This document shows positions 63,590 to 64,000 of a stretch of 64,000 nt of DNA, piece after piece. Source of the DNA: Desulforhabdus amnigena (GTDB taxonomy: Bacteria; Desulfobacterota; Syntrophobacteria; Syntrophobacterales; Syntrophobacteraceae); assembly GCF_027925305.1 (NCBI RefSeq), contig NZ_BSDR01000001.1, forward strand, positions 833,001 through 897,000, written 5' to 3'. The position numbers and the translations under genes are program-made. Within the stretch, counting starts at the first letter, position 1. Each line of letters begins with the position of its first letter. The notes beneath the pieces were generated by a model. That model ran no database searches. It was not told the origin of the DNA and saw only the letters and a list, made by a program, of their open reading frames with translations.

Positions 63590-63651
63590 AACTCCAAATG
63601 ATTGGCGGGCCAGGTTGAAAGTCGCACTAATCACGCCTTCAAATGATATAT

Positions 63652-63710
63652 ATGGCGCATACATGTCGTTATTGTGGCGTTATTTTATCTATTATGGCGC
63701 GATAATGGCG
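63652..63710. repeat. Phased TGGCG direct repeats, candidate activator sites
   Basis: TATGGCG, TGTGGCG, TATGGCG and AATGGCG have their GGCG at 63654, 63676, 63696 and 63707, giving steps of 22, 20 and 11 bases, close to whole helical turns. A further TTGGCG is at 63602. The cluster lies about 100-160 bases upstream of the start of the sigma-54 promoter at 63785, the normal enhancer distance. Confidence 0.45.
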
Positions 63711-63784
63711 ATGAAATTTAAAGGGGGGGCTGGGGTTGAGCAAATAATATTTGTAATATTAATATCTTAAAATTTATTTCGAGG

Positions 63785-63801
63785 TTGGCATTCATGTTGC
63801 A
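63785..63801 (+). promoter_or_regulatory. Strong sigma-54 (-24/-12) promoter
   Basis: TTGGCA (63785-63790), six bases, TTGCA (63797-63801). The GG and GC are exactly ten bases apart. Predicted start near 63812. It precedes a terminator by some 60 bases and so would make a short RNA. Confidence 0.7.
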
Positions 63802-63811
63802 AAACTTCATA

Positions 63812-63880
63812 AACAAATATGAAAGAAAACTCTTTCCTCCTCTTAAAACCAGTCGGTCTGCCCCACCGACTGGTTTTTTT
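63812..63880 (+). ncRNA. Candidate sigma-54-dependent small RNA, about 69 nt
   Basis: Bounded by the -24/-12 promoter and a terminator. The RNA would have a small 5' hairpin GAAAG/CTTTC (63821-63836), a C/U-rich part with CCUCCU (63836-63841), which is complementary to a Shine-Dalgarno sequence, then the terminator stem and U-tail. That build is common in base-pairing sRNAs. No known family is recognised, and it is a prediction only. Confidence 0.5.
63845..63880 (+). terminator. Strong intrinsic terminator
   Basis: AAAACCAGTCGGT (63845-63857), loop CTGCCCC, ACCGACTGGTTTT (63865-63877) is a perfect 13-bp stem, with seven T from 63874. On the other strand only four T follow, so it mainly serves + strand transcripts. 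Confidence 0.88.
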
Positions 63881-64000
63881 ATTCAGGAAAGGCTTCTTTT
63901 TTGAAGCCGTAGAATCCCGCCATACCTGCTTTCTCCAATGAACCGGAAACACCGTTGTTTAACCGAAATCACCTTAAGTCTCCTTCCGGTCGATATAGTT

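Follow-up and report, generated by a model that had tools for sequence, protein, structure and literature searches.

A short block close to the 3' end of a 64,000-nucleotide stretch of Desulforhabdus amnigena DNA (contig NZ_BSDR01000001.1, positions 833,001 to 897,000; here called the window) raises two questions. Does it encode a small RNA (sRNA), and which messenger RNAs (mRNAs) would such an RNA control? An earlier note had described an sRNA gene here with a sigma-54 promoter and a stretch complementary to Shine-Dalgarno (SD) sequences. Judged by its sequence, the locus is a real sRNA gene, one of a new sRNA family in sulfate-reducing bacteria. Comparison across genomes lends strong support to the picture of a sigma-54 promoter driving an sRNA that contains an anti-SD stretch. 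The RNA would pair with the mRNAs of a lipoprotein and a porin and block ribosome binding; we give this reading a probability of roughly four in five. The source genome comprises 4.54 Mb in one contig.

Promoter, pairing box and terminator

The near-consensus -24/-12 promoter of the earlier note is borne out by an exact match to TTGGCA-N6-TTGCA, the only one in the window (expected 0.08; present in 8 of 100 shuffles). Its GG (63787-63788) and GC (63799-63800) are ten bases apart as described, and the transcript would start at about 63812, 12 bases 3' of the -12 GC. The perfect 13-base-pair (bp) terminator with seven T is also as reported. The arms AAAACCAGTCGGT (63845-63857) and ACCGACTGGTTTT (63865-63877) enclose the loop CTGCCCC, and the seven T lie at 63874-63880. 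A scripted scan of both window strands for perfect hairpins of at least 12 bp with a T-rich tail returned this terminator and no other.

The predicted RNA of 70 nucleotides (nt) folds at -23.4 kcal/mol (z -6.3), mainly from the terminator. CCUCCU falls within the RNA box CTCTTTCCTCCTC (63830-63842). The C/U-rich part had been called single-stranded; this holds for CCUCCU, which is unpaired in the predicted fold, but part of CUCUUU lies inside a small 5' hairpin. The alignment fold showed no conserved pairing for that hairpin (63821-63836).

The same block could be read as a gene for a short peptide, since a frame from ATG 63819 stays open through the terminator. This ATG has no ribosome-binding site (RBS), and no conservation of the frame is visible in the alignment, where conservation tracks box, stem and loop. 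Both ATG and frame are missing in L002, a paralog in the same genome. A peptide had already been judged unlikely in the earlier note; the lack of a matching ATG in L002 supports this, and we consider a peptide scarcely credible.

Conservation of the family

BLAST of 63640-63890 found two more places in the same genome. L002 comes with a sigma-54 promoter, a box and a terminator of its own, and L003 has the box alone in common with the query. BLAST of 63780-63885 gave matches in 25 of 59 relatives, and a relative of the same genus (G001) carries a family copy. The pattern TGGCA-N6-TTGC-N15-40-CTCTTTCCTCCT was found in 93 stretches of the GTDB collection, against about 3 expected at uniform composition. 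The record titles of 90 of these name deltaproteobacterial or Desulfobacterota organisms. The three exceptions (L053, L103 and L124) were excluded together with L115, none of them having a matching terminator; L053 and L103 lie within open reading frames (ORFs) of 408-409 amino acids. Identical copies among the rest were merged.

Family copies split into two classes, A and B. All 53 aligned copies of class A have the loop GCCCC, though the pattern did not require it, and 10 of the 12 pairs of the class A terminator show changes on both sides in the alignment fold. Class B (44 aligned copies) has the box CTCTTTCCTCCTAA in most rows. Its alignment gave no consensus fold, and its model R2 is thus without pairs.

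The class A covariance model matched 37 of the 39 genomes of the order Syntrophobacterales, including 27 of the 29 good ones. In the order, 71 matches exceeded 54 bits, with a further group at 25-49 bits. One identical duplicate, three matches with no exact box (L019, L396 and L397) and two removed by a position filter (L135 and L143) were set aside, leaving 65 strong copies; the five set aside for lack of the exact box or by the filter were read separately. TGGYA-N6-NTGC stands before 64 of the 65, CTCTTTCCTCC is exact in 62, and the GCCCC loop is present in every copy. These counts include 51 model sequences pre-picked with promoter and box, so the fair set consists of the other 14 plus L019, L396 and L397. 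The promoter occurs in 16 of these 17 copies outside the model set. This is the independent count. The covariance model excludes the -24 half; the -12 half may fall inside it in short copies.

Across the phylum, with stricter filters, 21 of 247 genomes matched. Viral contigs gave no match to the family. No Rfam family reaches its gathering score at the locus, and the literature searched (open-licence PMC papers) held no account of this sRNA family. The earlier note had proposed a search for the 63640-63890 block in related genomes; the promoter, box and terminator indeed recur together through the order.

In 35 of the 44 aligned class B copies (loci L034-L122), the sRNA is convergent with an ORF ending in LGY; in L100, the one case tested, this ORF encodes GTPase Era. 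The class B terminator may therefore serve both the sRNA and the convergent gene.

Complementarity to lipoprotein and porin mRNAs

We propose that CUCUUUCCUCCUC would pair with mRNAs of abundant outer-membrane proteins across SD sequence and spacer, and that ribosome binding would thereby be blocked. The predicted target mRNAs encode an Lpp/OprI-like alanine-zipper lipoprotein, a Desulfo-type trimeric porin and perhaps HU. The exact complement of the box close to an ATG (AGGAGGAAAGAG-N0-8-ATG) was found at 65 distinct places (66 rows) across the 39 genomes, and the reversed pattern at 4. One Lpp/OprI-like lipoprotein accounts for 23 places, one porin family for 13 and HU for 7; the other 22 include one sRNA copy. 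Assignments come from loci that were read or places matched to the lipoprotein search.

The lipoprotein was matched in 36 of the 39 genomes, as a single match except in G002 (two fragments), and the porin family in 28. In the D. amnigena genome the lipoprotein start (C1:1905497) reads GAGGAGGAGAGAG-ATG, which gives 13 pairs, one of them G-U, and the porin gene (C1:1728783-1729199, minus strand) reads GAGGAGGAAATGAG-ATG. Across 247 genomes of the phylum, strong lipoprotein matches are confined to the order; in the distant relatives that were read, the RBS match is absent.

As controls we used 94 script-chosen ORFs with at least 5/6 SD matches and unverified start sites. From the target set, L380 was excluded before the RBS motif counts and the tandem porin L381 before the duplex energies. 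GGAGGAAAGAG stands at the RBS of 19 of 29 porins, 23 of 35 lipoproteins and 1 of 94 controls. Median energies of the duplex between box and RBS were -22.25 kcal/mol for porins, -20.7 for lipoproteins and -10.45 for controls, and whole-RNA cofolding gave medians of -19.9, -16.0 and -5.5. Complementarity is thus far above that of the controls. The terminator remains closed in all four own-genome cofolds; therefore pairing needs no terminator opening.

Porin leaders carry further matches. Of 28 porin leaders, 26 have GGGGC, complementary to the sRNA loop GCCCC, within 130 nt, as do 5 of 35 lipoprotein leaders and 12 of 94 controls; the two porins without it are those of D. amnigena and G035. GGGGCT at -90 to -25 is present in 17 of 29 porins, 1 of 35 lipoproteins and 2 of 94 controls. 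The loop would make a second contact with the porin leader through GGGGC. In family f1, an AGCTTTT-like word (AG[CT]T[TA][TC] by GAGGA) lies just 5' of the SD in 12 of 15 porins versus 1 of 94 controls. This word is complementary to the linker and the terminator 5' arm of the sRNA type marked by GCTAACC, and in that paralog (GCUAACC in the RNA) these parts could extend the porin duplex. In G029 and G031, which belong to one genus and count as one event, box (CCCUUUCC) and porin RBS (GGAAAGGG) have both changed, to a G-C pair.

The matches could also come from a general anti-SD RNA that damps many mRNAs with a strong AGGAGG or occupies ribosomes, with no dedicated targets. The box does complement a strong SD with a purine spacer, HU and varied genes fit exactly (22 of the 65 places fall outside the lipoprotein, porin and HU groups, including one sRNA copy), and the D. 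amnigena genome has 57 AGGAGGAAA-N1-9-ATG sites versus 10 for the reversed pattern. However, CUCUUU carries the match past the SD into the spacer, the strong-SD controls pair much more poorly, and porin leaders are set apart by GGGGC and the AGCUUUU extension. We consider a general role unlikely. The earlier note had proposed targeting of RBSs at large. The complementarity is there, but its scope narrows to the lipoprotein and porin leaders, which match far better than other strong-SD genes.

Two elements of the leaders were seen apart from the RBS. Porin leaders (L352-L379) and lipoprotein leaders (L215-L243) contain a conserved AAGGAGGTG-like element roughly 80-110 nt upstream of the start, itself not followed by a start codon at normal spacing. 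In the form AAGG[AG]GGTG it is present in 17 of 28 porin, 2 of 35 lipoprotein and 1 of 94 control leaders; GAGAGGAGGTGGG is the corresponding element in f1 lipoprotein leaders. This element may be a ribosome standby site. The lipoprotein leaders L215-L243 also have a conserved sigma-70-type promoter, CTTGATTTT, with about 17 bases from TTGATT to TAGCAT, in most aligned f1 genomes.

Predicted overlapping roles of the paralogs

The porin duplex is stronger than the lipoprotein duplex for 17 of 19 GCTAACC-type copies and for 12 of 17 copies of the other type (L-type). In eight genomes both types and the lipoprotein are present but a porin was not detected; there the lipoprotein duplex is stronger with the other type in 7, G015 having -34.0 vs -34.1. 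The window copy gives -24.0 with the porin and -26.1 with the lipoprotein, and L002 gives -32.9 and -29.7, respectively. In own-genome cofolding, the lipoprotein is favoured by the window copy and L002 alike. From the duplex energies of both types we expect the roles of the window copy to overlap with those of its paralog, with a lean towards the lipoprotein. The split of targets between L-type and P-type copies is not strict, given the porin preference of the L-type copies and the own-genome cofolds.

Evidence against the proposed targets

Several observations weigh against pairing with the lipoprotein and porin mRNAs. In D. amnigena both proteins score below the cut-offs of their models: 31.2 bits versus 43 for the NCBIfam Lpp/OprI alanine-zipper lipoprotein, and 127 versus 250 for DESULF_POR1, outer membrane homotrimeric porin. 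In 11 of the 39 genomes the porin model has no match. The own porin has one extra base in its RBS match and no GGGGC in its 130-nt leader, and the window copy pairs worse than L002 with both targets. The target site is absent in the lipoproteins of G029, G031 and G033 and in the tandem porin L381. GGAAAGGG also faces an unchanged box in the G009 porin and the G026, G028 and G038 lipoproteins, where G-U pairs serve. Hfq (PF17209) was not found in the D. amnigena genome; as a control, the search was run on 14 named genomes and detected Hfq in 5. Ortholog leaders share ancestry and the tests overstate independence, so p-values are only a guide. Finally, the likeness to the box complement could simply come with the strong SD of a highly expressed gene, and HU fits this.

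That last point also suits a real sRNA whose main target is another mRNA, the lipoprotein and porin matches coming from selection for strong translation signals; certain sRNA-bearing genomes lack the site or the porin. The 12-mer nevertheless recurs at the same two families, porin leaders carry a second complementary site, and one paired change was found. We regard another main target as very improbable and retain pairing with the lipoprotein and porin mRNAs.

Upstream repeats and the putative activator

TGGCG repeats lie 5' of the promoter at 63653, 63675, 63695 and 63706; the earlier note had missed them. Across the family, the motif tTATGGCGnGATT has 99 sites 5' of 51 of the 65 copies, or 6.7/kb versus 0.14/kb in the window. 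The sites are mainly on one strand, often spaced by 11, 20-21 or 31 bases. The paired motif TGGCGNGAT-N1-30-TGGCGNGAT occurs at 50 places in 27 of the 39 genomes, and the reversed control at 1. By position, 41 of the 50 are upstream of family copies. Five of the other 9 were read: three are within long ORFs and two (L409 and L427) have no assigned context. The D. amnigena genome has no exact motif pair, its TGGCG repeats being looser. A palindromic enhancer was also considered and rejected: palindromes were not enriched (at best in 2 of the 50 upstream regions, as against 1-2 in shuffles), whereas direct repeats were.

Because 41 of the 50 paired motifs lie before family sRNAs, the putative sigma-54 activator looks dedicated to them; no activator gene for the motif array was found. 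We suggest that sigma-54 RNA polymerase, together with this activator on the upstream TTATGGCGNGATT array, would transcribe the sRNA of about 69 nt, and that an envelope-related signal would switch it on. A wider proposal is an envelope pathway under sigma-54 throughout Syntrophobacterales, with no detected Hfq, in which the sRNAs would be nearly the sole output of the activator and the terminator, by its 5' arm and loop, would co-evolve with the porin leader as a second targeting element. We offer it tentatively, at slightly less than an even chance.

Comparison with known sRNAs

Envelope sRNAs acting on lpp and porins are known mainly as sigma-E outputs that work with Hfq in enterobacteria. 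MicL, MicA and RybB are such sigma-E-dependent, Hfq-associated RNAs; MicL blocks lpp translation, and MicA and RybB reduce porin mRNAs (PMC6737893). The present family resembles them in having an alternative-sigma promoter and the same two predicted target classes, and complementarity to the translation starts of an lpp-type lipoprotein and porins was found here. It differs in its sigma-54 promoter, predicted enhancer array, several copies per genome, the absence of a detected Hfq in the D. amnigena genome and targeting that is only predicted. The sigma-54 element stands in the place of a sigma-E promoter, for which no search was made, and the MicL, MicA and RybB models are not among the Rfam matches at the locus.

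Qrr RNAs of Vibrio have a sigma-54 promoter, several copies and upstream activator sites. The likeness to Qrr drawn in the earlier note holds for this design and does not extend to an Rfam family match: Qrr is absent among the matches up to E 10 in 63600-64000. The predicted targets also differ. In predicted function the family is like the sigma-E sRNAs and in promoter design like Qrr, with homology to neither. If the proposed targeting is correct, a sigma-54 family acting on the same two protein classes in a distant phylum would be convergent with the enterobacterial sigma-E sRNA arm. Sulfate reducers and syntrophs, which are little studied, would also gain a regulatory circuit of enhancer, sRNA and targets.

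LhrC of Listeria (RF00616) has C/U-rich motifs that can anneal to SD regions; its model scores 26.4 bits at the locus against a gathering score of 110. Such motifs are also described for NfeR1 of rhizobia (PMC10746234). Hosts, promoters and targets of both differ from those here. Two other sRNAs, from related phyla, were compared by description only. Pxr of myxobacteria, hosts with no detected Hfq, has a predicted sigma-54 promoter and paralogs in some species; its 108-nt coding region lies beside nla19, has three predicted stem-loops and plays a developmental role (PMC5568312). It is likewise a predicted sigma-54 sRNA of a former deltaproteobacterium, but the fold predicted for the present RNA consists of a single terminator plus a weak 5' hairpin in place of three stems. 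Dv_sRNA2 of Desulfovibrio vulgaris, a target of the response regulator DVU0679, adjoins the regulator gene (PMC3333781) and is similar as a regulator-controlled sRNA in a sulfate reducer.

Features of the locus

Table 1. Coordinates of the sRNA locus and its upstream region in the window.
Feature	Position	Strand	Evidence
Enhancer-like repeat array, putative sigma-54 activator sites; best copy TTATGGCGCGATAAT, ~63692-63706	63653..63714	+	Positions; family motif
Sigma-54 -24/-12 promoter TTGGCA-N6-TTGCA	63785..63801	+	Window sequence; TGGYA-N6-NTGC in 64/65 family copies
sRNA gene, ~69 nt (predicted start)	63812..63880	+	Sequence, fold, covariance model R1 match of 79.6 bits
Weak 5' hairpin, partly over CUCUUU (63821-63826 with 63831-63836)	63821..63836	+	Fold of window copy only
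Pairing box CUCUUUCCUCCUC, complement of GAGGAGGAAAGAG at target RBSs	63830..63842	+	CTCTTTCCTCC exact in 62/65 copies
Intrinsic terminator, 13 bp, seven T	63845..63880	+	Sequence; two-sided changes in 10 of the 12 pairs of the class A alignment
Loop CTGCCCC, its core GCCCC (63860-63864) invariant; putative second contact site for porin-leader GGGGC	63858..63864	+	GCCCC in 65/65 copies

A second sRNA type and other repeats

A second sRNA type has the same box and no sigma-54 element; the box was found by pattern in 18 of 20 fetched regions (L294-L313). D. amnigena carries L294 (C1:4135616-4135706, minus strand) and L295 (C1:2171383-2171468, plus strand). Upstream is a CTTGAC-N6/7-TTATAAT-like element, with a spacing unlike any usual sigma-70 promoter. 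A hairpin GGAAAG..CUUUCC forms over the box, and the terminator loop is rich in CCUCC. L295 and L296 contain two such sRNAs in tandem. L294 adjoins a gene, presumably similar to hrcA judging from its start, with the upstream CIRCE-like inverted repeat TTAGCACTC..GAGTGCTAA.

The 17-mer AGGAGGAAAAACAAATG occurs seven times in the D. amnigena genome. Three of the four occurrences read (L171, L180 and L351) precede proteins that begin alike (in L171 the protein is a DDE transposase), and the 17-mer is therefore mostly an insertion-sequence repeat.
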